The translations under genes were made by a program, and so were the position numbers. 64,000 nucleotides of DNA from Mycoplasmatota bacterium (GTDB taxonomy: Bacteria; Bacillota_I; Bacilli_A; Izemoplasmatales; Hujiaoplasmataceae): assembly GCA_016342455.1 (NCBI GenBank), contig JAEIOE010000004.1, positions 1 through 64,000 on the forward strand, written 5' to 3'. The notes beneath the pieces are model-generated. The model did no database searches. It saw only the letters and a program-made list of their open reading frames with translations, and was not told where the DNA came from. Numbering within the stretch: the first letter of the stretch is position 1; each line of letters begins with the position of its first letter. Of the stretch, positions 1-50,496 are shown piece by piece.

Positions 1-69
1 AAAATCGTTATAAACGTCTTAATTAAGCCGTTAAACGATAAAAAGCAACTTGGTATAATTAACCTGTCT

Positions 70-182
70 TGTCATTACTAAGTTTATCATGTTTTTCACT
101 AAAAAAATAGCGTGTTTTACTCTGGAGTTATACCAAGTTTACTGTTTGTGCACTAGAAGCTTAAAGCTTTTAGCACAATCGT
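70..182. repeat. Left-edge direct repeat, copy 1 (~113 bp)
   Basis: tgtcattactaagtttat...ataccaagtttactgtttgtgcactagaagctt...caatcgt; about 94% identical to 1398..1510 without indels (by eye). Confidence 0.9.
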
Positions 183-256
183 CATAATTTGTAACTTATC
201 TGTTGACAAGTATTAATCGAAAATAATTATACAAACATGCTATCAAAATCTTATTT

Positions 257-946
257 TTATATGTGAGAGGATTTAAATGATTCAATCTCAAATTTAACAT
301 TCTTCAAAAACATAATTGGATTTCCATAATCTATATCAAAATAATTATTTTTTATCCAATCATGAACATCAAATTTTGAAATAAAGCCTTTCTTAGTGTA
401 AGTATAAAGAGATCTAGCTGATGTAATTAACGCATATTTTTTATACGCTTCATTACTAAGCAGTAAGTCATTAGTTAGGAAATCATCGAGCTGAAAACTA
501 ATCTCTTTACTAACTACATTCCAATCAAAATTAATCAAGCTATTCAACAAGTCTGTTTTGTATATTGCTTTATAACTATCCAAGATCATAGCTGATTCTA
601 AATCACCAAATCCTAAATCGTGGATAGGCTTCCACCCTTTTGGGTTAGTCCCAACATAATAACCGCTCGTAACTTTATCATTCACTAATCCAATATACCT
701 ACCTTCAAAAAGGGAAAAAATAGACTTACTTTTTCTATATTGCGTGTGCAAATTTTGTATTTTCATTTGGTCATCATTAGATAGCTCACTTTTTATTAAG
801 GCTATAAAATCTATGTCACTAGAATCAGGACAAAATCCTCCTCTAACACTTGAACCATATATTATAATATCAAGTAATCGATTTCCAAAAATAGCAGATA
901 AATCCTTATTGAACTGTTCAACAACATTTTCAACTACTTCATTCAT
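257..946 (-). CDS. Nucleotidyltransferase, AadA-like/Pol-beta superfamily
   Basis: N-terminal IIIYGSSVRGGFCPDSSDIDFIALI matches the GS...DxD NTase motif; about 229 aa. Confidence 0.75.
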   Translation of the reverse strand: MNEVVENVVEQFNKDLSAIFGNRLLDIIIYGSSVRGGFCPDSSDIDFIALIKSELSNDDQMKIQNLHTQYRKSKSIFSLFEGRYIGLVNDKVTSGYYVGTNPKGWKPIHDLGFGDLESAMILDSYKAIYKTDLLNSLINFDWNVVSKEISFQLDDFLTNDLLLSNEAYKKYALITSARSLYTYTKKGFISKFDVHDWIKNNYFDIDYGNPIMFLKNVKFEIESFKSSHI

Positions 947-1051
947 ACAAGAGCCTCCTTAATTCTGGTATAATCACAAATTCTCCTTGCATCCAAGTAT
1001 TGTCTAGTCATTACAGAATTTTACTCTGTTTCGATAGAGTCTAACTCTCTT

Positions 1052-1351
1052 TCATATGGAGTTGCTTTTTTTTAATGTATTTTCTCCTAATTTCCATGTT
1101 CCATCATGATTGAGTTTCATCATTTTTAAATAGTATTCATTTGGCTTACTAACAGAGTAATTATGTGTTTTAGTGATGTCATAATCACAAAATGCAGCTT
1201 TATCATATAACCCCACTATATACACTAGGTCCTGTTCCAAATTATTTTCTACGGAATAAATTTTTCTAACTGATTTATGATTATCGATTAGTGATCTCAC
1301 TGAGTATGGTTTATCTAAAAGACCATATACACCATAACTAAAATCACACAT
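1052..1351 (-). CDS. Hypothetical protein (99 aa)
   Basis: ORF between repeat copies; no motif recognised. Confidence 0.5.
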   Translation of the reverse strand: MCDFSYGVYGLLDKPYSVRSLIDNHKSVRKIYSVENNLEQDLVYIVGLYDKAAFCDYDITKTHNYSVSKPNEYYLKMMKLNHDGTWKLGENTLKKSNSI

Positions 1352-1397
1352 CAGAAACTTTCCTTCTACTACCGCTTCGCAGATTGTATGTCTGTGT

Positions 1398-1510
1398 TGT
1401 CATTACTAAGTTTATAATGTTTTTCATCAAAAAAATAGCGTGTTTTCCTCTGGAGTTATACCAAGTTTACTGTTTGTGCACTAGAAGCTTACAGCTTTTA
1501 GTGCAATCGT
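1398..1510. repeat. Left-edge direct repeat, copy 2 (~113 bp)
   Basis: Near-identical to 70..182. Confidence 0.9.
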
Positions 1511-1693
1511 ATTAAAAAAAGAAAATTATATTGACAAGTTTTATCGCTACTAATTATGAATACAGGCTATTAAAATATTATTTTCTATGCATACGATAAA
1601 GCAGGTGTCCTCTGTTTAATTTCCATACCAATCCAAAAATCAACCCTCATGTTTGAAAGAAATTTCAGAATGTCGTGTATTATACCCTGAACA

Positions 1694-2623
1694 TTATTGT
1701 TTGATATTTAGTTCTTTTATTATTTTAGCTATCTCTTTTATTTCATTCAATATTTGTTTTCTTCTATTGTCGGTTTCAATAATATCGCTTAAGCTTTTTA
1801 AAGCCATCACAATGCAAAATAGTTGTAAGCAATCCTTTTTATTTATCTCGCGAGTAAATATCCCGTGACTAACTCTGTTTCTGTTAATAATTGATGGTTC
1901 CTCATCTTTCTCAATTGATTTTGAAAATATATGTTCCTTAATTAATAAATTCACATTGTCTATCATCCGGACAAAAAAATCAATATTTGTTTTAAATGGT
2001 TGTGATATTGATTCCACTTGTTCTTTAGTCTTATCAAAATTTTCCTTTATCCTGAATATACTTTCCCCATCAAATTTACCCACTAGTTTATGCAAATATT
2101 CAATTACTGGAAATAACCCTTGAGCACAAATATAATATGCATCATTTACATATGCTACTCTGCATTGTTGATAATAAGCATTGGCTATTTTTGAATCAAA
2201 TGAGATTGAAGATGGGAAATAAGTATGGAAGTATTCATGAAAAAAATCCACATATAATTGTTCAGAATCTTTGTTGGAATATCCACTAACCCTAAAGTCT
2301 TGCCTAAACATAATCCACCCTTTTTGAGATAAAACATCATAATAGGATTTCGAGAAAATATTTCCGAATAAATTCTTCCCAAATTCATGTCTAAGGATTA
2401 GAACATAATATAAATGTTTATTTTGATAGTGGATATAGATGTTTGAGTAATATTCTTTTTCGCTAATATTGTCTTTTTTCAAACCAGCTAAGACTTTCTC
2501 ATCGATTGCTATTTTCTCTCTTAGTTCAAGAATATTCTTGCTAAGATCCATTGTATAAGTTATCGCTGAGTAAGGTTCAATTTTATTCATAAATAACCTT
2601 CTTTCCACACTAAAAAAATCCAT
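1694..2623 (-). CDS. HEPN-like hypothetical protein
   Basis: C-terminal IINRNRVSHGIFT contains an Rx4H-type HEPN motif (RNRVSH). Confidence 0.5.
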   Translation of the reverse strand: MDFFSVERRLFMNKIEPYSAITYTMDLSKNILELREKIAIDEKVLAGLKKDNISEKEYYSNIYIHYQNKHLYYVLILRHEFGKNLFGNIFSKSYYDVLSQKGWIMFRQDFRVSGYSNKDSEQLYVDFFHEYFHTYFPSSISFDSKIANAYYQQCRVAYVNDAYYICAQGLFPVIEYLHKLVGKFDGESIFRIKENFDKTKEQVESISQPFKTNIDFFVRMIDNVNLLIKEHIFSKSIEKDEEPSIINRNRVSHGIFTREINKKDCLQLFCIVMALKSLSDIIETDNRRKQILNEIKEIAKIIKELNIKQ

Positions 2624-2684
2624 GTATTGTTCTCCGATGAATGTCTTGTCACTCCTAATTTTTTCGTGATTTTAGGTGCTTAAG

Positions 2685-3143
2685 CTAGTCTAAAATATGC
2701 TCATATATATTCAAATTATCTTTTGAATCAACAAGATTAAATCCACTATGTCCGAACAGACGAATTGATACTTCATTTTTAGATTCAATGCTTGCTCTTA
2801 TTTTTTTGTATGGGAGACATAAAGCATTATTCTTCAAGTCCCTAAGAACTGAAGTTGCAATTCCCTTTTTCTGAAAGTTTTGAATAATCATAATTGCAAT
2901 ATTAATTTGCTTATCAACAAAGTCTATTTGCAATCCTCCTACAAGTATATCATTCATATAAAGTCCATAATATTTCACGTTGTCACTTTTAGTGACATAT
3001 TTTATATAATCGTGACTAATATTAATATATTTAGCTACTGATTTGTCGGTGTGTATTTTTAATATATCAATCATATTAGAATAATCAAATAAAATATAGT
3101 CAATTTTCATTTGCTTAAGCTCTCCTTTTATAGGTAATATCAT
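2685..3143 (-). CDS. GNAT family N-acetyltransferase
   Basis: GNAT-like pattern: IAIMIIQNFQKKGIATSVLRDL followed by SKNEVSIRLFGHSGF. Confidence 0.8.
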   Translation of the reverse strand: MILPIKGELKQMKIDYILFDYSNMIDILKIHTDKSVAKYINISHDYIKYVTKSDNVKYYGLYMNDILVGGLQIDFVDKQINIAIMIIQNFQKKGIATSVLRDLKNNALCLPYKKIRASIESKNEVSIRLFGHSGFNLVDSKDNLNIYEHILD

Positions 3144-3174
3144 GAGTGTTTATAAATACTGAAAACTAAGAACA

Positions 3175-3648
3175 TCAAGAACAGTTATCAATCATAAAAT
3201 AATCTTCTATAATAGGCTTGTGAGTTTCTGCAATTTCAATTTCTCTTATTTCATCTATTGAAAAAAATTCATTTTTTTTTGATTCAGAACTACAAATCAA
3301 ATCAGGTAGCTGGTCTAGTACGGTTTCATATACCACAGTTATAACTCGCAATACATTACCATCAGGATAACTGGCAATTCTCGATGGATCATCATAGATT
3401 TTAAAAAAATGTATTTCATCTTCAGCAATATTGATTCCTGTCTCTTCAAGAGTTTCTCGTATGGCGCAGTCTATTAAGCTTTCTTTGATTTTTAAGCCTC
3501 CACCAATGATTGCCCATCTATTGCTATCACTTCTTTGCTCTAGCAAAATCATATTATTATATTTGATTATGATTGATGTCCCTATATGATTTGGTTTGTT
3601 AGGTTTTGGTGCGGAATTATCCTTATAATAGAATCTCGTTTCTTTCAT
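3175..3648 (-). CDS. NUDIX hydrolase
   Basis: Nudix box GGGLKIKESLIDCAIRETLEETGI. Confidence 0.92.
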   Translation of the reverse strand: MKETRFYYKDNSAPKPNKPNHIGTSIIIKYNNMILLEQRSDSNRWAIIGGGLKIKESLIDCAIRETLEETGINIAEDEIHFFKIYDDPSRIASYPDGNVLRVITVVYETVLDQLPDLICSSESKKNEFFSIDEIREIEIAETHKPIIEDYFMIDNCS

Positions 3649-3693
3649 AATCTACCTCTTTCATATCCTGTAAATGATTATTCAATTAACCGA

Positions 3694-4485
3694 TTATTCC
3701 TTGGCAATTATATATATTAAATCGGGAATAATTACTTTTCTACCATAATTATATTTAGCTTGAAGTTCTTCATTTCTTCCAACAAGTGGATGTCCAGATG
3801 CTGAATTATCAGAAACGATTAGCAAAGCAATTGCAGGCACTTCAAGTAAATCAGCAACCAGATAAAAAGTACTCGTTTCCATCTCAATTAAATCTGTTTG
3901 AAATTTTTTTATTTCATCTAGATGATAGTACTCTAAAGCTACAGAATCAGTACAAAATACAGAAGCTTTTTTTAAAGTATACTTATTTTTTTTTGCTAGA
4001 GCTATAATTTCATTTATGTATTTGCTATCTGGATATATTTCTTTAAATGGTATATAATCATGTAAATTTTCTTCTAAATATGCATTTGCAAATACACCTG
4101 CAACACTATAAGAAGGTGTGCATAATTCACCAACACCATATTTATCTGTAAGGCTACCAACTGCCCCAATAAAAATTAATTTTTTAAATTTTAATTCACC
4201 ACAAATTGATAAGTGATCTAAAAGAGTGCTTGCTCCTGATGAAATTTGAATCCATGCAATTTTAACATTATCTCTTTCCACCAAATACCCAGAGGTAAAT
4301 GAGTGTGTTTCAAGAGTAGTGATCTTAAAACTATCATCTTGAATAATACTTGTTGGCTTCCAACTAGGAGCAATTACCAAAACATCATATATAATATTTG
4401 GATCTAACCCAAAATTCATATATGCCATGTTTGAGACATTATATTTGTGTATATGGTCTAATATTTTCTTCATTTTCTCTTTCAT
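3694..4485 (-). CDS. Nucleoside phosphorylase family (PNP_UDP_1-like)
   Basis: IFIGAVGSLTDKYGVGEL and DLIEMETSTFYLVADLL, SDNSASG motifs. Confidence 0.8.
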   Translation of the reverse strand: MKEKMKKILDHIHKYNVSNMAYMNFGLDPNIIYDVLVIAPSWKPTSIIQDDSFKITTLETHSFTSGYLVERDNVKIAWIQISSGASTLLDHLSICGELKFKKLIFIGAVGSLTDKYGVGELCTPSYSVAGVFANAYLEENLHDYIPFKEIYPDSKYINEIIALAKKNKYTLKKASVFCTDSVALEYYHLDEIKKFQTDLIEMETSTFYLVADLLEVPAIALLIVSDNSASGHPLVGRNEELQAKYNYGRKVIIPDLIYIIAKE

Positions 4486-4518
4486 CTAATCACCATTCTC
4501 TTAAGTCAGATTCTCTTA

Positions 4519-4620
4519 TCAATATTAAGTTTATTTCTTAAAGTTCTCAATAAATAGTAATTTTTCACTCCAATTTTACCGAGTTTACTGTATTTGAACT
4601 TAAAACCAAAACTTTTTGTA
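4519..4620. repeat. Possible diverged copy 3 of the left-edge repeat
   Basis: atattaagttta...taccgagtttactgtatttgaac resembles attactaagttta...taccaagtttactgtttgtgcac. Confidence 0.4.
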
Positions 4621-4650
4621 ATCTTATTATCATCAAACACTATTTATTTA

Positions 4651-5409
4651 TTAATTTTTAATTGATAATATCGCTTTATTAGGTAATGAATTTTGAAATT
4701 GAGGATTATCTTTGTCAATACAACTATTATTAATTTCCTCAATAAAAAACTCCTCGTAGAATGTATTAAGCAGTTCTTTCAAGTTGCGAATATTGTCCAT
4801 TAATGTATCACCAAATGTTCCATCATTGAAAAAGCATTGTTGAAAGTCTTCATAAACAAATAGCATTCTATGATGACTAACTGTATTTCGAAGTTCTTTT
4901 ACAGCATATAAGTTCTCTTTTAGATGATCTGAACTCCCAAATAACTCGATTAATTCGCTCTTTTTTAATTTTTTGGATATATTTAGTAATTGACTAAAAT
5001 CTAAATTTTCTAGTTCTTTAGATAAACTACTACCCTCTACAATTGATTTACTAATTGAATTCGATATTTTTTTTATACTGTTTATGTCGCTACAATATTT
5101 ATTAGATATATACCCTCTAATTCCTTCTTCTAAAGCTGAAAGAAATTTATAAAGAATTTTTCGTATTCTTTTGTCATAAATATATAGATTTTGTACTTTC
5201 TTATACTCTAGTTTTCCATTCTCGTTTAATTCAATATAGTTGACAAGAACTGTGTGATAAGAAACACCTTTCAAATCCAAATATTGTCTACACCTAAATT
5301 CTTCTTTTTTATTTTCAAACTCCATTCTTGCAATGAAGTCTTCCTTCGATATATCTAGTGAGAGTTTCGTCTTCATAGATTTAGACCCAGTTATATCTGC
5401 TGTATACAT
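4651..5409 (-). CDS. Abi_2-like/HEPN protein
   Basis: RNTVSHHRMLF gives HEPN Rx4H; YDKRIRKILYKFLSALEEGIRGYI resembles the Abi_2 N-terminus; overlaps upstream gene by 29 bp. Confidence 0.7.
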   Translation of the reverse strand: MYTADITGSKSMKTKLSLDISKEDFIARMEFENKKEEFRCRQYLDLKGVSYHTVLVNYIELNENGKLEYKKVQNLYIYDKRIRKILYKFLSALEEGIRGYISNKYCSDINSIKKISNSISKSIVEGSSLSKELENLDFSQLLNISKKLKKSELIELFGSSDHLKENLYAVKELRNTVSHHRMLFVYEDFQQCFFNDGTFGDTLMDNIRNLKELLNTFYEEFFIEEINNSCIDKDNPQFQNSLPNKAILSIKN

Positions 5410-6049
5410 TATTCACTGCCTCATAAAACAACGTAAATGATTTTTTACCCTCATCATTGTTGTTGTTTTTGAGCTTGAGATACTCGCCTCTAACTTCATT
5501 CCATAACCCATTTGCTTTTAAATTTGAGACTTTATAAGTATAGTTTTTTGCAGATGGCTTTTCATTCCAAGTATAAACATCTGTTGTTTTATTTCGAACA
5601 AGAATTTCTTGATTAAACTGATCATCATCGTCATTATACTCGTTCACAATAGCAAAATCACACCCATGTAAAATTCTACTATTTTTTTTATCAACCACTT
5701 TGATTACCATGGATTGTTTACCATTTGAAACATTACTATATTGAGTGTTTTCAATTATATTTTGTAATTCTTGAATGAATAATAATTTAAGATCTTTCGG
5801 ACTTAAATCTGCATCCTTTTGAATAACAAAATTATAGTCAAAATCAAATCCTGTGTTCCCTCCTACAACTCTTGTAACTAGATTCTTTCCACCACTTCCT
5901 ATTAGTTTAGGATCAAAAGTAACATTTTCTTCTCTTAAGTTTTTTTGCAAATCTCTGATTAATTTCTCAACTTGTTCTTTAGCAGGTTTCAATTCCGCTT
6001 TTGAAACATACTCAAATGTTCTTCCTGCATAATCTGACATTCTAATCAC
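5381..6049 (-). CDS. Predicted nucleotidyltransferase
   Basis: IGSGGKNLVTRVVGGNTGFDFDYNFVI (GS...DxD) and ILHGCDFAIV (possible third Asp). Confidence 0.65.
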   Translation of the reverse strand: MIRMSDYAGRTFEYVSKAELKPAKEQVEKLIRDLQKNLREENVTFDPKLIGSGGKNLVTRVVGGNTGFDFDYNFVIQKDADLSPKDLKLLFIQELQNIIENTQYSNVSNGKQSMVIKVVDKKNSRILHGCDFAIVNEYNDDDDQFNQEILVRNKTTDVYTWNEKPSAKNYTYKVSNLKANGLWNEVRGEYLKLKNNNNDEGKKSFTLFYEAVNNVYSRYNWV

Positions 6050-6064
6050 CTTCCTATATATTTT

Positions 6065-7870
6065 TTATAAATCTTCATCATCTGCATCTTCAATTATTAC
6101 AGTCTCTTCATCAATTAGTTTTTCTCTTTGAAATAATCCTTTTCCATCTTTAGTATATAATTTGACATTTTCGCTTTGTGGCCTATTTGCTATATCCACC
6201 TGATGTACATATACGAAATTTGGCATTTGAAAAGCTGTTCCAGATACAATACATTCGCCTGGTGCTAAAACAGTCAAAAAGTCCAATGATGTCTCATCTA
6301 AATATGCTACTGCTTTTCTTATTTTCTGGATATCTGATGGATTAACTAATTTGTGTATAAAATAATTATGTAGTTGTGAAATGATAGTCTGTGAAATATC
6401 ACTTGGTCTCTGACTAGCGAGCATAAGAAAACATCCGAATTTTCTGCCTTCCTTTACAACTTTTTCAAACACTTCTAGAACACTTCTGTGTGTTGAGGAT
6501 TGACTAGTTTCTTCGTATAAAAGGTTATGGGCTTCATCTACTACAATATTAATAATTTGTACAATCTCATCTTTTTCGTCTTTTTTATCTGCTAGAGAAT
6601 CAAAGATTTTATTTGATATCAATGAAGGTACTATTTCTTTCATATCTTTATTCACATCACCCAATTGCACAATACAAATATTCTTCTTATCAAAAATAAT
6701 GTTTTTATCATCTTCAGTAATACTAAAATCAAATACTTTCTTGAAATCAGCAATCAATTTATTTGCTCTAGATATAAGAGGCATCATAAAATCAAGTTGA
6801 ATACCATTTTCATTTTCTTGCGCAACTGCGAAATACAACTCAAATATGAATCTGTCTAGCCCATCATCTGGAAGATTAAGTTCAATATCATCAAGAAGTC
6901 GATCGAAACCTATTTGGTTAACATATAATGGAGAAAGTCCATCTCCTTTATAATAAAAATCTGATGTTGTTGAGTTAAATTTAAAGTTTTCAATATTCTC
7001 GAAATACTGACCTAGATGGTGTCTCATAGAGAAAAATAAATACCGTTTTCCATTTAGAATCATCGATTTGATTCGATCGATATAGTATTTTTTCTCTCTT
7101 TGTTCGCTTTTTTTTGCAAAAGTCCATTTGTAGGCGTTTTTAATTACCGGTACCTGTGTTTTTTCTGATGCATTCATGAGTACAACAAAATTATCTTCAG
7201 TCAATGTTTTTAAATTAAGAGGTATTTTATCACCCTTATCATTTCGTGTTCTCAATTTATAAACTTTTTTCTTATCTTCTAAACATATTGCATCTTTTGA
7301 ATACTCATTATTTATATCAAAGATGATAAACTTTCCCCTATTTGTATTTGCTTCATTAAGTACTTTCTCGTATTCAAGAAGAATTCTTGTTAGTGTATTA
7401 GACTTTCCTGAACCAGTATTACCAAAAACACCAATATGAGATGGTAACAAGTTATTTATATTAACTTCAATTTCTTTGCTTATATCAAACAAGTCATTTC
7501 CTATAGGAATCGTATGTTTTGATCCATCATTATAAATATATCTAAAGTCTTTTTGATCTAGGAGTTCAACTTCAGCAGATACAATCGGCAACATACGTAA
7601 TCCTTGAATAAAAGTGTTCTTATCGATGTACCCTTTAACTTGTAAATCTAAAAAATGAGAGTCAACTCTACCGTTTTTATATTCCGAGATTTCCCCTACC
7701 ACTTGACAAATAATAGTATCTAATCCTACTTTTGTCTTCAAAAATCCATTAATCTTTGGTGCATTCTCATACTTATTATTCTCAACAAGGTATGGAGGTA
7801 GAAGCTCATTTAGTTTTGCCTTAACAGCAAGTCCTCTTACTTCAACTATTCTTCCGATGGATTTTCCCAT
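6065..7870 (-). CDS. HerA-family (DUF87-type) ATPase
   Basis: Walker A GVFGNTGSGKSNT; Walker B IINIVVDEAHNLL; ASQRPSDIS; HAS-barrel-like N-terminus. Confidence 0.93.
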   Translation of the reverse strand: MGKSIGRIVEVRGLAVKAKLNELLPPYLVENNKYENAPKINGFLKTKVGLDTIICQVVGEISEYKNGRVDSHFLDLQVKGYIDKNTFIQGLRMLPIVSAEVELLDQKDFRYIYNDGSKHTIPIGNDLFDISKEIEVNINNLLPSHIGVFGNTGSGKSNTLTRILLEYEKVLNEANTNRGKFIIFDINNEYSKDAICLEDKKKVYKLRTRNDKGDKIPLNLKTLTEDNFVVLMNASEKTQVPVIKNAYKWTFAKKSEQREKKYYIDRIKSMILNGKRYLFFSMRHHLGQYFENIENFKFNSTTSDFYYKGDGLSPLYVNQIGFDRLLDDIELNLPDDGLDRFIFELYFAVAQENENGIQLDFMMPLISRANKLIADFKKVFDFSITEDDKNIIFDKKNICIVQLGDVNKDMKEIVPSLISNKIFDSLADKKDEKDEIVQIINIVVDEAHNLLYEETSQSSTHRSVLEVFEKVVKEGRKFGCFLMLASQRPSDISQTIISQLHNYFIHKLVNPSDIQKIRKAVAYLDETSLDFLTVLAPGECIVSGTAFQMPNFVYVHQVDIANRPQSENVKLYTKDGKGLFQREKLIDEETVIIEDADDEDL

Positions 7871-8745
7871 AATTCACTTACCATTCTACTACATGTCAAT
7901 GTAGGATTTTTTTTGTTATCATTATCTTCCTGCTCAATAACTATAACGTTGTTTTTAATTGTTTCAGGAATAATATGAGTATTATCATATTTAAACCAAT
8001 AAACTGTTAATCCAAAACTAATAGCATCATTTATTAATGAATTTAAGTGTTCATCATTCCCAGAATATCCAATAACAAATAGAATTGAATTTTTTCTTGA
8101 GAGTTGTGATTTCATTCTAAATAATATTTCAAATCTCTTTCTTTGTAAAGTTTCATCATATTTGTTCTTGCTTGGTAAAATGGGATTTTTTAAATCACCA
8201 TGGATTTTTGAAACTAAGTAAGTAGGAACATAAACATCCCTACTATAATCATAACCTATCAATTCAAAAAACTTATCGTTTCCATCAATATTACTAGATG
8301 AAATTACATTACACAAATATCCAACATTGTTAAGTACATTTTCAATAATGTTATCATAATTCGTCGTATAAACATTTACCTGTTTCATTGTCTTAGTTCT
8401 ATTTTCTGAGCTAAGAATAAGTGCGTTAAAGTTTGTAAACATTTTTTGAATATCTTGAATATCCACATGCGTCATTTGTGCATCATCAATACTTTTTCCT
8501 AGTTCTTCCTGAAACTTTGCTAGAACCTCATTTCGTTTAGATTCTTCTAGCTCAAGCAAACCTAGTTCAAAATTCTTAGTTGATCTACCAAGCTTTTCTT
8601 TTAGTAAATCGTTGGTTTGTTCAAGGTCATTCATTTGTTTTATCGCCCTACCGTTCACTCCAGCACCGAAGAAAAAATTTAAATGCGCGGATGATAAAAT
8701 TCTTGAATTAAACATGACGGATCCTTCTTTTTCTATTTTATCCAT
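7846..8745 (-). CDS. SIR2-like protein
   Basis: FFFGAGVN, VYTTNYDNIIE, SKIHGDL and LFVIGYSGNDEH; overlaps HerA ORF by 25 bp. Confidence 0.9.
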   Translation of the reverse strand: MDKIEKEGSVMFNSRILSSAHLNFFFGAGVNGRAIKQMNDLEQTNDLLKEKLGRSTKNFELGLLELEESKRNEVLAKFQEELGKSIDDAQMTHVDIQDIQKMFTNFNALILSSENRTKTMKQVNVYTTNYDNIIENVLNNVGYLCNVISSSNIDGNDKFFELIGYDYSRDVYVPTYLVSKIHGDLKNPILPSKNKYDETLQRKRFEILFRMKSQLSRKNSILFVIGYSGNDEHLNSLINDAISFGLTVYWFKYDNTHIIPETIKNNVIVIEQEDNDNKKNPTLTCSRMVSELWENPSEE

Positions 8746-9241
8746 AATATATCTCCTTCCTAATCTTTATCAATTCACTTACTTGTGCTCTTATAACCTC
8801 AGGTATAAGACTACTCACATCAAACAACTTATTCATATGATAATGTGCAAATGCTATTGCATCAATCTCAATGTCTTGTGTTAGATAATCTTCATCATTT
8901 TCTAGAACACCTGAAGGTCTCTCATAATTCTCCATATCTTGTTTCCAGGTATTGATTGTAGCCTGTTTTATGATTTCTTTTCCTTTATACTTACCTGAAA
9001 CAACCAGGTATTGAAAAACATGTCTAGTCTCGTGAAAGCACGTTGTTTGAATTTCTAGAGTGTTTGCCGACAATATCCATACCTCATTAAAAGCTATAAT
9101 CATTTTTTCTTTTAGAAACACTGCATTGATGCCTTTTTCATTTAAATTTATGTCATTAAAAAACTGCACATCAGGAGTCTTTATATTAAGTATCCGTGCA
9201 GCTAAAGCAACTCCACTCATCGCAACTTCAAAATTATCCAT
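8738..9241 (-). CDS. Putative zinc metallopeptidase (HExxH)
   Basis: TTCFHETRHVFQYL contains HETRH; overlaps SIR2 ORF by 8 bp. Confidence 0.65.
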   Translation of the reverse strand: MDNFEVAMSGVALAARILNIKTPDVQFFNDINLNEKGINAVFLKEKMIIAFNEVWILSANTLEIQTTCFHETRHVFQYLVVSGKYKGKEIIKQATINTWKQDMENYERPSGVLENDEDYLTQDIEIDAIAFAHYHMNKLFDVSSLIPEVIRAQVSELIKIRKEIYYG

Positions 9242-9264
9242 GACAACCCCCGTAAAATCGTTTA

Positions 9265-9299
9265 TTTATAAATAAAGTATATCACATTTTATTTATAAA
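9265..9299. promoter_or_regulatory. Inverted repeat overlapping probable promoter of the defence operon
   Basis: tttataaataaa (9265-9276) and tttatttataaa (9288-9299) are perfect 12-bp arms with 11-bp spacer; minus-strand TATACT lies across the spacer and one arm. Confidence 0.5.
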
Positions 9300-9312
9300 G
9301 GAAATTGAAAAA

Positions 9313-9345
9313 AAGCCGTAGCAGATTCAACCGCTACGGCTTCTT
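9313..9345. terminator. Hairpin terminator
   Basis: aagccgtagcagattcaaccgctacggcttcttt, with A-run/T-run flanks. Confidence 0.75.
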
Positions 9346-9361
9346 TGTGTGATCTTGTATT

Positions 9362-9622
9362 CTATTCTTGTTTTGAGTTGATAAATGTGAGTTTTTCACC
9401 AACAATCCTTAAGATGTTGTTATCAATTTTGAGTGATGCTTTTACTCCAATTGTTGCCCCTTCACTTAAGTACTCCATGACGTTTTCCATCAATCCTTCA
9501 TTTAGGTTAACTGGAATGACATCAGATTCTAATTCATCTGTCCTTTTAATTTTGATTGCTACAATTCCGGCAAGTTTATCTAATCTCTCTACTCTTCCTA
9601 CAAGTATAACTTGATTTAACAT
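9362..9622 (-). CDS. Single-stranded DNA-binding (OB-fold) protein
   Basis: MLNQVILVGRVERL start typical of SSB; short 86-aa form. Confidence 0.7.
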   Translation of the reverse strand: MLNQVILVGRVERLDKLAGIVAIKIKRTDELESDVIPVNLNEGLMENVMEYLSEGATIGVKASLKIDNNILRIVGEKLTFINSKQE

Positions 9623-9686
9623 TCCTAATTCCTCCTTTTTTTGTTATGTCACATATTACCGTTATAAAACAGTAATAGCAACCATT

Positions 9687-10178
9687 TTATGACTGATTTT
9701 TAAGCTTATCAGCGATAATCTTTTCAGCTTCAGATAATGTCGATTTTCCATGCATTTTATTGCTAAAAGAAATGTAATCATCAATAATTGATTCAATCTT
9801 ACTTTGGTTGTCTTCTACAAAACCAATCGCACGTTCAGTAGATCCTGTTAGATTGGATACCCATTCACTTAAGCGTTGAATAACTGCAAACTTCTTCTCA
9901 TCACCTGCTAAGAATGCTTCACCTTTGGATATTGCAATTTGGTTCTTTTCTTCTACGATCATAATGAACTCTTTAATCGTTTTTTGTACGGACTCATCAA
10001 ATATGATATCTTTTGCTTTAGATACCAGTTCATTTATTACTACTGATGACTGTTTAAGATCGTCTTTTACTTCTTTAATCACATTGGATAAATTACCATT
10101 TTCCTTAAACTTGGATGTTAAATACAGTGTTATCAAAAATATGATGATTACAATTAATACTAAATCAAGTGTTGTCAT
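9687..10178 (-). CDS. Phage holin-like protein (LL-H type)
   Basis: N-terminal TM segment then soluble helical region; located after tail genes. Confidence 0.65.
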   Translation of the reverse strand: MTTLDLVLIVIIIFLITLYLTSKFKENGNLSNVIKEVKDDLKQSSVVINELVSKAKDIIFDESVQKTIKEFIMIVEEKNQIAISKGEAFLAGDEKKFAVIQRLSEWVSNLTGSTERAIGFVEDNQSKIESIIDDYISFSNKMHGKSTLSEAEKIIADKLKNQS

Positions 10179-10491
10179 TTTCTTTTCCTCCGATTCGTTT
10201 ATATATATTTACTTGTGAATCTTCTAATCTCGATACGCGATGTTCCAGGACATTGACGTCCTTTTTTAATGTTTTGATATCTTGAGAATGTAACTCAAGC
10301 AAATTCAACATCTTTACACTTTGTTTATCTATCTTTTGGATATTTGTTAATATTTCTTCATTACTTGTTTGGCTTTGCTTGTTTTGCTTATTGAACTGTT
10401 TAATGGTTGTCATGATAACAACCACCATTGTGACAACCCAATAAATCAAATTTTCCATCCGAAACAAATCATATAAATTATCCCAACTCAC
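10165..10491 (-). CDS. Small membrane-anchored phage protein (XhlA-like)
   Basis: One TM segment plus coiled-coil (DIKTLKKDVNVLEHRVSRLEDS). Confidence 0.55.
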   Translation of the reverse strand: MSWDNLYDLFRMENLIYWVVTMVVVIMTTIKQFNKQNKQSQTSNEEILTNIQKIDKQSVKMLNLLELHSQDIKTLKKDVNVLEHRVSRLEDSQVNIYKRIGGKENDNT

Positions 10492-11155
10492 TATTCATCA
10501 ACTCATTTCTATATTGTTCTAAGTATTCTAATTGCTCTTCCAATAATTCTTTATATCTATGTCCTATTTCGTTGTTCCAATTTTTCTTGTAATCAATCAT
10601 GTACGTCTTCCATGGTTCTTCTACTACAAGCTCATATTTTCCTGTTTTCTGAAAATGTTCAATCATTCCTCTAAATCTAAAGATATGATAATGTGACTTA
10701 AAGAACGGACTGATATCATATCTCATGCGTCCATACTGCAGTTCTACCGTTAAATGATTAATCATTAATTCCTTATCATTGTAAGTGAGTAACTGAGTAA
10801 GTGTTTCTTCAAAACTTGGATTTAAGTATATTAATGTTCGACCAAGACTAAGTAAATCATCTGCAGCTGCACGGTAGTAGGGAATAATCCCTTCGTGGAA
10901 TCCTTGACGATCAATAAAAGTTTCCTTCGAATAAGCAAAAACATCATATTCAGCCAAATTCAAATGAATAAGTCCTCTAAAATTATCAAGCACTACATTT
11001 ACATCCTTATCACTGCTTTCATCATCTAACCCATAGGCAATTGAACCGCAATAATATAAAAGGAGTATTTCCGTTCCTGGAAAAACTCCTTTGATTAATC
11101 TATATAGTTTGTCCATCAGACTCTGGTTCAACGATTGCTGAAGAAAATGGTTCAA
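10478..11155 (-). CDS. Nucleotidyltransferase superfamily protein inside the late operon
   Basis: LLYYCGSIAYGLDDESSDKDVNVVLDN (GS...DxD); true start may be Met14 (about 11116). Confidence 0.75.
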   Translation of the reverse strand: MNHFLQQSLNQSLMDKLYRLIKGVFPGTEILLLYYCGSIAYGLDDESSDKDVNVVLDNFRGLIHLNLAEYDVFAYSKETFIDRQGFHEGIIPYYRAAADDLLSLGRTLIYLNPSFEETLTQLLTYNDKELMINHLTVELQYGRMRYDISPFFKSHYHIFRFRGMIEHFQKTGKYELVVEEPWKTYMIDYKKNWNNEIGHRYKELLEEQLEYLEQYRNELMNSELG

Positions 11156-11444
11156 TCACATCAAAATCATCAATTGAATCTTCAAAACCAATGACATTAT
11201 GCTTCAGCCAATTGTATCCTTGTTCAATGGGATTTACATTTAAAAATGATGTAAAATCAGAAAACGGAATTTCAATATCGATTTCTTCAATTGGATCTTT
11301 GTGATCAGCTCTTGCTTCCTTTGAAAGATAAGTTGCTACACAGATCACACATTTCTTCTGCGAATAGCTGATGTTAAAAGCTGTAATGCGGTGGTATGAA
11401 GCATTGATACCAAACTTGGTATTAAATTCTTTTATGATGGCCAT
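11100..11444 (-). CDS. Hypothetical phage protein
   Basis: ORF in late operon, overlapping the NTase start. Confidence 0.6.
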   Translation of the reverse strand: MAIIKEFNTKFGINASYHRITAFNISYSQKKCVICVATYLSKEARADHKDPIEEIDIEIPFSDFTSFLNVNPIEQGYNWLKHNVIGFEDSIDDFDVIEPFSSAIVEPESDGQTI

Positions 11445-11451
11445 ATAGTCC

Positions 11452-12132
11452 CTACTTTCTTTTTATCCTAAATATTGTGACTGCGATGCTATCAGGAGAT
11501 CCAATAGACATTCCTGGGTTGATATAAAGCGCACCTAATGCTCCATTGATTGAATGAGCAAAATCGACAAGTTTCACTGAAGGATTTCCTTGTCCAGATA
11601 GTGTTGTGATACTTTTTCCGTATGCAACCCATTGCTGAGTATCTGATAATGAACTTCTAAATGTTGGAGATATTTCAAAATCAATGACTTTCACGATACC
11701 ACTGGTAATAGTTGGGCTCGCAATAAAATTATCATCGATGTATTGTGCTGTTGTATTCATTCCAGATGTTTTCGAGTGTGTTGTATCGACTGTATTCAGA
11801 TGGTGCGCTAGATACGATCCATATAAACTTGATTGCGCTGCAGTGCGATAATAGATATAAGTGTCCGAAGTATCCACTGAAGATCCATATGTTGAGGCTA
11901 TTACATGGACTTTATAAATGTAATCCGGGTCAAATGGATATACCAAACTATGATAATAGCTATATCCCTCATAACTATAGACTTTTTCAAGTTCGCCACC
12001 TATTTTTATTACTGAGGATGATCCTCTAGCATAGAGTGCATTATTACTATAATCGAAAGCAAGTTCACCAATATAAGCCAAGTTTGAAGTTGTTGGTGTT
12101 GCAGTTCCCCTCTTGACTCTGATGATTGCCAT
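11452..12132 (-). CDS. Tail fibre/receptor-binding-like protein
   Basis: N-term MAIIRVKRGTATPTTSNLAYIGELAFDYSNNALYARG, common tail-fibre N-terminal pattern. Confidence 0.65.
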   Translation of the reverse strand: MAIIRVKRGTATPTTSNLAYIGELAFDYSNNALYARGSSSVIKIGGELEKVYSYEGYSYYHSLVYPFDPDYIYKVHVIASTYGSSVDTSDTYIYYRTAAQSSLYGSYLAHHLNTVDTTHSKTSGMNTTAQYIDDNFIASPTITSGIVKVIDFEISPTFRSSLSDTQQWVAYGKSITTLSGQGNPSVKLVDFAHSINGALGALYINPGMSIGSPDSIAVTIFRIKRK

Positions 12133-19006: not shown

Positions 19007-19573
19007 CTAAATAAATGTTGGTAATTCTGGTGCACTAGTTAAAAATGCAGTGTAGTTGGTATCTCCAACTCCAGCAATAATTCTTAAAATAAGATTGTTT
19101 CCAGATTCAATTGGTCTTGCTGTAATGCTCAATGTAATTGAGTTTGCTTCGATTGAATCTGCTTTTGATTTGCTTGCATCACCTGAAGGTGTCGCGGTAC
19201 ATAAGAAGTACCAAATACGTCTTGCCTTGATGTCTCCTTGAATCTCATATCCTAATGCAAATGTCTTTGTTTCGCCATTTACTATCTCTACCAGGTTTCC
19301 ATTTGTGTCTTCTAAGAAACCAAATATGTCCTTTTTAAAGACTTCATCAATCTCTGTAAATTTCAATGTAACATTTGTTCCTGAATTTGATACTAGTGTT
19401 GCGATCACTTTGTCATCAGCATATACTTGTGTGCTTCCACCGATTGCTTCAGTCGTAATCTCTTGTGCTCCTTCTAATTTTTTTGGTAATCCAAAAGTCC
19501 AACTACCATCTTCTGCTTGTGTGGCTAATGCATAATGTACATTTTTTAAGCCAAAAGTAACTTTATTACTCAT
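19007..19573 (-). CDS. Major tail protein
   Basis: MSNKVTFGLKNVHYALATQAEDGSWTFGLPKKLEGA resembles siphovirus major tail proteins. Confidence 0.85.
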   Translation of the reverse strand: MSNKVTFGLKNVHYALATQAEDGSWTFGLPKKLEGAQEITTEAIGGSTQVYADDKVIATLVSNSGTNVTLKFTEIDEVFKKDIFGFLEDTNGNLVEIVNGETKTFALGYEIQGDIKARRIWYFLCTATPSGDASKSKADSIEANSITLSITARPIESGNNLILRIIAGVGDTNYTAFLTSAPELPTFI

Positions 19574-19575
19574 AA

Positions 19576-19911
19576 TTAAATAACCTCCAATTTAATTTCA
19601 TAAACTCTGTTAATAGATCCATCTTCATTTGTGTATTCAGATAGCATTTGAAACTCATAATTGCTTAAATATAAATATAACTCGAGTCGTTCTTCCAACT
19701 CGAGATTCTTTTTTTGTGTAATCAAATTCACTTGAATCGTTGCGATTCTCATTTGAACTTTATCATCTGCATATACAGTTCCACGATTGCTTATTTCTTG
19801 ATAAACAATATAATCATTTTCTTGAATGATATTTTCTCTAGTGCCATAGGATACTTGTCCAGGTAAAGCTGACTCTAATACTTGATATAGATTTTCTAAT
19901 ATGATTTGCAT
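19576..19911 (-). CDS. Tail completion-like protein
   Basis: Position and length in morphogenesis module. Confidence 0.6.
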   Translation of the reverse strand: MQIILENLYQVLESALPGQVSYGTRENIIQENDYIVYQEISNRGTVYADDKVQMRIATIQVNLITQKKNLELEERLELYLYLSNYEFQMLSEYTNEDGSINRVYEIKLEVI

Positions 19912-47144: not shown

Positions 47145-48845
47145 ATGTTAGAAAAAAGAGTATTTATCATGGAACCCGATCAAGTTTTCCATGAAGATAA
47201 AAACGGAATGCCTATTTCCAGAGAAAAGAAAAGTGTTTGTGCTTATGCGAGAGTTTCAACTGACTCAGATGATCAACTAAATAGCTACAAAGCACAAATC
47301 AATGAATTCACTAAGAAAATTCAAGAAAATCCTGAATGGGAGTTTTTGGATATGTACGCGGATGAAGGTATTTCTGGAACAAGTATGAAAAAGAGAACTG
47401 AGTTCTTAAGAATGATTGAAGATGCCAGGGCAGGTAAAATTGATTTAATCTTAACCAAATCATTATCTAGGTTTGCAAGAAACACCGTAGACTGCCTTAC
47501 TGTAGTAAGAGAGCTTAGGGAAATCAATGTTGAAGTTTATTTTGAAAAGGAAAATCTATATTCCAGTGATACAAAAATAGACTTCATGCTCACTATCTTC
47601 TCTTCTATCGCCCAAGAAGAATCTAGAAACATTAGTGAGAATGTAAAATGGGGATTTCGTAAACGATTCAAAGAAGGTAAGGTTCACATTAATACAACAA
47701 GATTCCTAGGTTATGATAAGGATGCTGATGGGAAAATCATCATCAATACAAAAGAAGCAAAAACCATCCGAATTATTTTTAATATGTACATTGCAGGATC
47801 TTCATTAAAAGATATTGCTCAATTCTTAACTGAAAACGAGATACCTAATGGCCGAAAAGAAATCTTCTGGACTTCAGCCACAATAAGCACCATATTGGTA
47901 AACGAGAAATACTGTGGCGATGCAATTCTACAAAAAAGAGTGGTTATCGATTATTTATCCCACAAATCAGTTAAAAACAATGGCCACGCACCGAAGTATT
48001 ATATTATGAATAACCATGAGGCAATCATACCAAGAAATAAATTTGAACTCGTTCAAGAGTTAAAGAAAAAAAGAGGTCGAACCAAAAGTGCATCTCGTTA
48101 TGGAAATAAGTATGCACTGAGCGGAATTGTCTACTGTGGCCATTGTGGTAGAGTGATGAATAGACACTACTTCAATTATGATAAACCTTCACAAAGAGTT
48201 GTTTTATCTTGCAAAAACAGACAAAACAATGATACTCCATGTGATAACACCCCAATTGATAATGATACTTTGGAACTGGCAATCATTGATGCAATTAAAT
48301 ATCTGCGGCTTGATAATCCTTCAATAGTTAATGAAACATTGGAACTTGTAAAAACAAGTCTAGATTCTTCTCATATTGAAATAGAATTACGTGAAATAGA
48401 AAAAGAAATCAAAAAAGTTGAAAACAGTATAAAAGATATTATCAATATAAATGTAAAAACAATGGCTGAAGATACTGATTTTTATAAGGCTTTATACAAT
48501 GAAAAGAAAGCAATACTTGTTGAACTTAAAGCAAATCTTCAGAACAAGAAAAACATACTCGTAGATGTACACCTACATGATGAACGAATCAATCAAATAC
48601 GTGATTTCTTAAATGGATACACTGCACTTAATAAAACAATTCTACTTGGAATGTTCAAAGCAATAATCGCAACAGATAGAAACAATGCCATATTAGTTAT
48701 GAGTGATAGGAAACTTACAAAGCAAGAGGTTAGAGGAAATATAGATTCATTCAAATCACTAAAATCTATTTATTCAAACACTGTAACCAACAAGAACACA
48801 AAACAATCTATTACTTATCGCGTTGTTGAACTTGGGGCAAACTAA
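47145..48845 (+). CDS. Large serine recombinase 1
   Basis: VCAYARVSTDSDDQLNSY; zinc ribbon YCGHCGRVMNRHYF; 566 aa. Confidence 0.96.
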   Translation: MLEKRVFIMEPDQVFHEDKNGMPISREKKSVCAYARVSTDSDDQLNSYKAQINEFTKKIQENPEWEFLDMYADEGISGTSMKKRTEFLRMIEDARAGKIDLILTKSLSRFARNTVDCLTVVRELREINVEVYFEKENLYSSDTKIDFMLTIFSSIAQEESRNISENVKWGFRKRFKEGKVHINTTRFLGYDKDADGKIIINTKEAKTIRIIFNMYIAGSSLKDIAQFLTENEIPNGRKEIFWTSATISTILVNEKYCGDAILQKRVVIDYLSHKSVKNNGHAPKYYIMNNHEAIIPRNKFELVQELKKKRGRTKSASRYGNKYALSGIVYCGHCGRVMNRHYFNYDKPSQRVVLSCKNRQNNDTPCDNTPIDNDTLELAIIDAIKYLRLDNPSIVNETLELVKTSLDSSHIEIELREIEKEIKKVENSIKDIININVKTMAEDTDFYKALYNEKKAILVELKANLQNKKNILVDVHLHDERINQIRDFLNGYTALNKTILLGMFKAIIATDRNNAILVMSDRKLTKQEVRGNIDSFKSLKSIYSNTVTNKNTKQSITYRVVELGAN

Positions 48846-50496
48846 GATGAACATTGTAGAAATACTCAATCTTGAGGCATATGAACAGAAATTAGTAAAG
48901 AAGAATGTTTGTGCATACGCTAGAGTTTCTACTAGCAAACTTGCACAAGAGTCATCATTTGATTTACAAGTAGACACTTATACCAAAATGATAATGAATA
49001 ACCATGAATGGAATTTTATGGGAGTTTATGCCGATGAAGGAAAAAGTGGAACGAACATAACCTTTCGTGATCAATTCATTTTAATGGTTGATTTAGCAAA
49101 GACTGGAAGTTTAGATCTGATTATCACAAAATCAATATCACGTTTTGCGAGAAATGTTATTGATTGCTTATCCATCATCCAGGAACTGAAGTCTTATGGA
49201 ACAGAGGTATGGTTTGAAAAAGAAAACTTGTCTTCTTTTGATAATAAAATAGAGTTTGTTATTTCAGTTATGGCTGGTATGGCTGAAGAGGAATCAAGAA
49301 GTATTAGTGAAAATGTTAAGTGGCGTATAAAAAAGAAATTCAATAATGGTATTATTCCGATGGTTACTTCTCGCGTTATAGGATACTCACGTGATGAAAA
49401 GGGAGAAATAATCATCAACCCACAAGAAGCAAAAACAGTGAAGTTGATCTTCAATATGTATTTACAAGGCTACTCTCATAGAAAAATTGCTGAACATTTA
49501 AACTCTTTAGGATTAAAAACAAAAGCAGAAAAGGTTGATTGGTATGAGAATGCAATTCAAGGTATAATTAACAACGAAAGGTATACTGGAAACGCTATTC
49601 TTCAGAAATCAAGACGTAAAAAAATAGGAAATAGAAATTCAATCAAGAACCAAGATAAACTTCCAAAATACTATGTGGAAAATTCTCATCCGGCTATTAT
49701 CACTCAATCAACTTGGGATAAAGCACATGAGCTAAAGAATCAAAAAATAATGAAATATCATCACACGTTAAATCGTAAAGAAATTAGAAAGAAATCCAGT
49801 ACGCGTTCAGAATATAGCGAATTTATTATATGTCCAATATGTGGAAGAAACTATGTTTTCAAAACAAACAACATCAATACCCCATATGAAAAACGAATTC
49901 TAATATGTTCTTCTAACAAAGATACAAAAGTATGTGAGAATGAATCAATGTTTGCAGACACATTCGACTCAATCATGATTTCACACATCAATCAGATTAT
50001 CAAAAATAAGGACATCTTCTTAAAGTTCCTTCGTAACGCTTTTTTATCTCATCCTGCAATCATTAGCCTGAATTCAAATTTGGTCCAAACACAGGGGAAA
50101 TTAAGCGAGTTAGATTCAAAGTTACGCCTTCTGATTACATCAGATGATGAACTGGATAGACAAGTTAAGACACAGCTTATAGAGCTACAGACAAAACTTC
50201 AATTAGAACTTGTAGGATATCAAAACAAATTGCTGACAACTCATAACATTAACAATATTGCTAAATACTATAGACTTCTATTAAAAGATTTTAATAAACC
50301 AATTTTAGAAATCACTGAATTCCCATTTAAAGAGTTCTTTAAAAGAGCTGTTATGCACGATAGACACAGAATTGAATTTGTAATTCAATTCGATGAAAAC
50401 TATGGAGATGCAACCGATCAATTTCAAATATTAAAAACAGAATACTTAATAAGGAAAACAGTTCATGTTGTAGAAAGCAAAATTACTATTTATTGA
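48823..50496 (+). CDS. Large serine recombinase 2
   Basis: VCAYARVSTSKLAQESSF; CPICGRNYVF; overlaps recombinase 1 by 23 bp. Confidence 0.96.
   Translation: MLNLGQTKMNIVEILNLEAYEQKLVKKNVCAYARVSTSKLAQESSFDLQVDTYTKMIMNNHEWNFMGVYADEGKSGTNITFRDQFILMVDLAKTGSLDLIITKSISRFARNVIDCLSIIQELKSYGTEVWFEKENLSSFDNKIEFVISVMAGMAEEESRSISENVKWRIKKKFNNGIIPMVTSRVIGYSRDEKGEIIINPQEAKTVKLIFNMYLQGYSHRKIAEHLNSLGLKTKAEKVDWYENAIQGIINNERYTGNAILQKSRRKKIGNRNSIKNQDKLPKYYVENSHPAIITQSTWDKAHELKNQKIMKYHHTLNRKEIRKKSSTRSEYSEFIICPICGRNYVFKTNNINTPYEKRILICSSNKDTKVCENESMFADTFDSIMISHINQIIKNKDIFLKFLRNAFLSHPAIISLNSNLVQTQGKLSELDSKLRLLITSDDELDRQVKTQLIELQTKLQLELVGYQNKLLTTHNINNIAKYYRLLLKDFNKPILEITEFPFKEFFKRAVMHDRHRIEFVIQFDENYGDATDQFQILKTEYLIRKTVHVVESKITIY

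Follow-up and report, generated by a model that had tools for sequence, protein, structure and literature searches.

In CBASS, the signal made by a nucleotidyltransferase (NTase) activates an effector, and the sign of this control is opposite to that of Clover. In Clover, which is composed of the dNTPase CloA and the NTase CloB, the NTase product restrains the toxic partner (PMC12265719), while in HEPN/MNT pairs MntA nucleotidylates HepT directly (PMC7641770). Cas13 is reported to have evolved from the Abi_2/AbiF family of HEPN proteins (PMC12373285).

The window (the whole 64,000-nucleotide stretch of DNA analysed) contained the prophage genes terminase, portal, major head, tape measure and repressor. 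The five genes under study were bordered by the lysis genes on one side and, on the other, by the end that this otherwise recognisable prophage lacks, and the region beyond the late/lysis genes is the usual site of lysogenic-conversion cargo. The contig starts at base 1 of the window, so the constant flank is visible on one side only and the far end and the att site lie outside. The preferred reading, with a probability of about 0.7, is that the locus is a lysogenic-conversion hotspot of a prophage in an Acholeplasma-like host, with exchanged cargo, in which a SIR2-HerA pair and an NTase-HEPN pair are stacked and the HEPN RNase would be under nucleotide control. The anatomy, modularity, pairing and predicted folds are shown by the results described below, while the activities, the direction of control and the role of the HExxH protein are inferred. 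The coordinates of the features are shown in Table 1.

Table 1. Features of the locus and copies of the repeated intergenic element (window coordinates unless another source is named)
Feature	Position	Strand	Description
HExxH protein	8738..9241	-	167 aa; small zincin-like predicted metallopeptidase
SIR2-family predicted NADase	7846..8745	-	299 aa; Pfam SIR2_2 2.7e-14; PADLOC SIR2 6e-18
HerA-type ATPase	6065..7870	-	601 aa; DUF87 1.7e-16; PADLOC HerA PDLC04097 2.6e-113
Compact cGAS/DncV-like nucleotidyltransferase	5381..6040	-	219 aa; predicted fold and GS-DFD-D
Abi_2-family HEPN predicted RNase	4651..5409	-	252 aa; Pfam Abi_2 8e-10
Extended -10 element TGTGATATACT	9276..9286 (9286-9276)	-	upstream of HExxH; sequence reading
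Intrinsic-terminator-like hairpin and T-run	9307..9341	-	ends the upstream phage (lysis/86-aa) operon; sequence reading
Conserved late phage genes (225, 108, 163, 86 aa)	9362..11155	-	upstream anchor; order kept before HExxH in many prophages
Two adjacent large serine recombinases	47145..50496	+	PHROG integrase 4e-132; Pfam Resolvase/Recombinase; mark the other end of the prophage
Repeated element copies, window	64-182, 1392-1545, 4511-4655	-	
Repeated element copies, L176	12521-12670, 18841-18991		
Repeated element copies, own genome	C90, C2, C41		

An earlier note on this DNA had described five minus-strand open reading frames (ORFs) with overlaps of 8, 25 and 29 bp and one gap of 15 bp, and had assigned SIR2, HerA and Abi/HEPN domains. 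The ORFs, the overlaps (25 bp between the HerA and SIR2 genes, 29 bp between the HEPN and NTase genes) and the three domain assignments were all recovered. The gap between the HerA and NTase genes was revised: the GTG at 6049 falls inside a Shine-Dalgarno region and the ATG at 6040 is preceded by AGGAAGG-8nt-ATG, which makes 6040 the likelier NTase start and the gap 24 bp. The HExxH protein and the NTase had no Pfam family above the cut-off and no PADLOC match. The motifs were intact in the HExxH protein (HExxH and E125), SIR2 (GAG, TTNYD and KIHG), the NTase (GS-DFD-D) and the HEPN protein (RNxxxH). Purifying selection on the HExxH, NTase and HEPN genes, each with dN/dS of about 0.04-0.31 where dS of the pair was not saturated, showed that these ORFs are not chance. 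The single promoter proposed in the same note for the five genes was supported by the extended -10 element and by a TRTGNTATAAT-like element that recurs 5' of HExxH in many relatives with differing cargo, and the five packed genes probably share one transcript. Hairpins like the strong one at 9341-9307, which sets the operon apart from the 86-aa phage gene before it, also precede HExxH in many relatives; the terminator and the hotspot's own promoter would insulate it from the lytic genes.

In many prophages, HExxH homologues follow the phage genes of 225, 108, 163 and 86 aa or a serine-recombinase pair, and the cargo after HExxH differs, usually starting within about 50 bp. Cargo behind HExxH included Pycsar PycC and PycTM (L127), SIR2-HerA followed by Gabija GajA/GajB (L102), a type II methylase with a candidate restriction gene (L116), DUF2971/PDC-S31 (L101, L103 and L107) and DUF3800 (L033 and L035), while L099 carried GmrSD/HEC-05 farther downstream. 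DNA identity between related prophages covered the promoter and the HExxH gene and broke off 0-100 bp short of the HExxH stop codon, after which the cargo differed. DNA comparison placed the crossover close to the 3' end of HExxH in pairs such as L103/L104, L101/L102, L108/L109 and L105/L128, and also in window/L176. The closest relative, L176, was 88% identical over 8,978 bp, until 65 bp before the HExxH stop; past this breakpoint it carried a gene of 189 aa and an NTase-HEPN pair other than that of the window, and neither SIR2 nor HerA. The hotspot would thus have a small HExxH protein as its usual first gene, with the cargo downstream exchanged by recombination close to the HExxH 3' end. 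A conserved patch of about 60 nt within the HExxH gene was considered as a dedicated recombination site. It was 92% identical between L097 and L113 vs 49% elsewhere, but the evidence is suggestive only, as the all-pair median, 0.54, rises just to 0.67 there, and no clear peak was seen in codon identity when only shared residues were compared.

Other features of these regions were observed. A variable family of membrane proteins of about 290-330 aa occurs behind HExxH in L127, L099, L100 and L181, where it precedes Pycsar, NTase-HEPN and others. By eye, a 226-aa ORF directly 5' of HExxH in L109 (4703-5383, MGDEKIDKKYITHVKNESNRLF...) resembles a gene farther along the L176 cargo array (19050-19733). 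The conserved 225-aa late phage gene (10478-11155) has an NTase-like GS...D.D motif with a weak Pfam MTPAP-like match (0.0019), and an ORF close to the contig start (257-946) holds an additional nucleotidyltransferase domain (NTP_transf_2, 1.4e-05). A 309-aa ORF (1694-2623) has no Pfam match and resembles, by eye, a 304-aa cargo gene behind HExxH in L100, so the cargo region probably reaches past the five genes. An intergenic element of about 110-150 bp, oriented with the genes, often lying 26-90 bp before the next start and ending in ...ATAAACTTAGTAATGACAAG, was repeated in the window and in L176. The genome of origin gave seven matches to it, two of them within the window, and the copy at 4511-4655, 3' of the HEPN gene, was diverged. 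An integron-like attC site is not claimed, since one copy folds no better than shuffled sequences (z -0.8) and copies lie directly upstream of genes; the element is possibly a promoter-bearing repeat or a cassette border.

The AF2 model of the HExxH protein had a pLDDT of 90. Its Foldseek matches were weak, with none at E below 0.001, and comprised selecase/jannalysin, IrrE-like zincins and phage IrrE/SprT-like proteins; the zinc motif (HExxH and E125) was conserved among homologues. Named relatives of the gene were mostly from Acholeplasmataceae, Izemoplasmatales, other Tenericutes or unplaced Bacillota. Neither the HExxH protein nor the operon DNA had a match in phage records, and plasmid records gave none. 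Separately, locus L180 (CP017949.1) has HExxH with a serine-recombinase pair on a 93-kb plasmid, possibly a phage-plasmid, of Tenericutes bacterium MO-XQ. In a less biased sample, with the 225-aa phage gene as query, 15 places were found in 246 genomes, one of which was cut off and excluded from the HExxH count; locus data were added for G193 and G104. HExxH was downstream of the 225-aa gene in 8 of the 14 assessable places, in some with further genes intervening, and was absent from the other 6, at least one of which (L279) still carries a row of genes there. HExxH is therefore frequent and not obligatory, which weakens the case for it as an obligatory partner; it is probably an accessory gene that comes first in the hotspot.

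The metalloprotease had also been put forward as sensor or activator of this gene set, and nothing in the analysis supports this. It might instead be an ImmA- or CapP-like protease acting as a general regulator of whichever cargo follows, as the recurring promoter, the first position, the tight coupling to unrelated cargo, the purifying selection and the intact zinc motif would suit. Such a role is rather unlikely, given that no repressor gene is linked, that the gene is missing from the six sites above, with L279 still carrying its row, and that recombination alone can account for the position.

The larger proposal of the earlier note was that all five genes form one composite defence system, in which an NADase arm is combined with an RNase arm and the HExxH protein serves either as the sensor or as the activator. 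The overlaps and the single promoter fit such a system, and SIR2-HerA is found close to NTase-HEPN in a further two genomes, G095 (L034, about 1.3 kb) and G061 (L272, about 6 kb), in other arrangements and with other genes between. This proximity agrees with the clustering of defence genes and falls short of showing a single machine. Among the loci found, none besides the window carried the five genes together. HExxH-SIR2-HerA occurs with Gabija in place of NTase-HEPN (L102), and HExxH-NTase-HEPN lacks SIR2-HerA in L108, L114, L193 and L194 and is interrupted by other genes in L099, L033, L176 and L177; the lack of SIR2-HerA in the closest relative, L176, also speaks against one system. Homology between the window and L102 starts 19 bp ahead of the HExxH stop and ends 42 bp short of the HerA stop (-19 to +2631, SIR2-HerA only), while homology with L099, which has NTase-HEPN in common, resumes at +2697, the NTase ATG. 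From these boundaries, SIR2-HerA and NTase-HEPN are separate blocks. Module boundaries coincide with gene ends, and the HExxH and NTase trees differ. The composite system was rejected on this modularity and is very improbable; the refuting condition named in the earlier note, that homologous loci almost never keep more than SIR2-HerA together, is largely borne out. The locus is made of three separately exchanged pieces: the HExxH gene, the SIR2-HerA pair and the NTase-HEPN pair.

The assignment of SIR2-HerA to a known anti-phage class was borne out, and by its sequence the pair is an ordinary member of that class. As in Nezha (SIR2-HerA), the SIR2 and HerA genes overlap, the SIR2 catalytic motifs adjoining the HerA ATPase are intact, and the PADLOC HerA match is strong. 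The catalytic motifs were invariant in the alignment of SIR2 relatives (A4), the PDB holds relatives of the window HerA, and the SIR2 profile weakly matched the solved SIR2 chain 8w9l. The scores fell far below the NCBIfam cut-offs for the anti-phage SIR2/HerA equivalogs (37.7 bits for a cut-off of 500, and 146 bits for one of 850), which indicates the same class and a different subfamily. Two differences from Nezha were a shorter SIR2 (299 aa vs 381 for 8w9l) and carriage in a prophage hotspot. By Nezha-type homology, a HerA ring with SIR2 subunits would degrade NAD(+) on phage sensing.

The NTase-HEPN pair is the newer part of the locus and is unnamed so far as open-literature searches show. 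A single-sequence search recovered NTase relatives in 30 of the 246 class genomes, and a profile search in 42 of 291 genomes of the phylum draw. In the class sample, roughly half of the full-length NTase loci had an adjacent HEPN gene, and the remaining loci had no HEPN neighbour even at a relaxed threshold, so other NTase partners are possible. The NTase gene was usually first, with the order reversed in some loci. Phage records held one distant NTase-HEPN pair; the viral-contig census covered HExxH and one single-sequence NTase scan, so that combinations outside the HExxH context were under-sampled in viruses. The identity matrices of NTase and HEPN (mirror-tree) correlated at r=0.93 over 21 loci. 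Among the 11 HExxH-bearing loci, r was 0.98 for NTase-HEPN vs 0.33 for NTase-HExxH, and L108 and L199 shared 91% identity in HExxH vs 27% in the NTase. The AF2 model of the NTase had a pLDDT of 91.6, and all of the 50 Foldseek PDB matches listed were CD-NTases/cGAS (E of 5e-7 for the best one, with TM scores of about 0.45-0.6 relative to the query). GS-DFD-D was conserved in 21 NTase homologues and RNxxxH among HEPN homologues, and the HEPN profile matched PDB 8vz6, 'Abi family protein' (2e-4). An abiF RNA antitoxin for HEPN was considered and none was found: Rfam gave no match to RF03085 within window 1-12000, nor in any of eight related loci.

Known NTase/HEPN toxin-antitoxin pairs had been invoked for these two genes. 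The co-evolving pair is real, and the conserved pairing, the overlap and the matching trees show that the two genes form a unit. Its placement in the HEPN/MNT type is contradicted by fold and families: there was no Pfam NTase (NTP_transf_2-like) match, the top fold matches were CD-NTase/cGAS, and HEPN/MNT membership was rejected. Direct nucleotidylation of the HEPN toxin by the NTase, which would then be an antitoxin like MntA acting on HepT, has the pairing, the overlap and the HEPN/MNT precedent (PMC7641770) in its favour, but the fold is nearest cGAS/CD-NTases with no MNT among the Foldseek matches listed, and the HEPN is Abi_2, not HepT, so that this mode of action is unlikely. In the likeliest case, a nucleotide made by the NTase regulates the RNase. 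Restraint of HEPN until infection, as CloB restrains CloA, is slightly preferred over activation because the NTase is usually first and overlaps the toxin-like gene; the NTase nucleotide would then keep the HEPN RNase restrained until infection. A nucleotide signal that activates the RNase on infection, as in CBASS, would agree with the CD-NTase-like predicted fold. This alternative is possible though doubtful, as NTase-first order and overlap with the RNase gene are also typical of restraint and no PADLOC CBASS model matches the NTase or the HEPN. Under restraint, a tentative proposal is that the NTase-HEPN pair may be a so far undescribed immune system of two genes. The nucleotide of a mini cGAS-like enzyme would then silence an Abi_2 RNase in place of the AbiF RNA antitoxin, and phage interference with this nucleotide would release the RNase.

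The apparent five-gene system thus becomes a clear example of prophages assembling defence by module swaps at a fixed border, and little was found in the open literature on such hotspots in Acholeplasma relatives. The NTase-HEPN pair is common and connects the Abi_2/AbiF family with cGAS-like enzymes. Like Clover (PMC12265719), it has two genes, an immune-type NTase (D-x-D and a third acid) and a potentially toxic effector; the effector here is an Abi_2 HEPN RNase and not an HD dNTPase, and restraint is a proposal. HEPN/MNT shares the tight operon of HEPN and NTase, with HepT and a minimal NTase in place of an Abi_2-type HEPN and a cGAS/CD-NTase-like fold. AbiF/Abi_2 (PMC12373285) shares the Abi_2 HEPN with its R-x4-H motif and the occurrence in prophages near lysis genes, whereas here RF03085 was not detected and an NTase gene adjoins HEPN instead. 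With CBASS, the pair shares the fold, as predicted, and the GS-D-x-D-D residues (acidic triad), while the NTase is 219 aa vs about 270-390 for the matched CD-NTase structures, and there was no PADLOC match and no known CBASS effector at the locus. As in other phage-borne defence hotspots, a fixed phage site carries variable defence cargo; the differences are that the hosts here are Acholeplasma-like and that the hotspot is often HExxH-led, with the HExxH gene as the recombination border.
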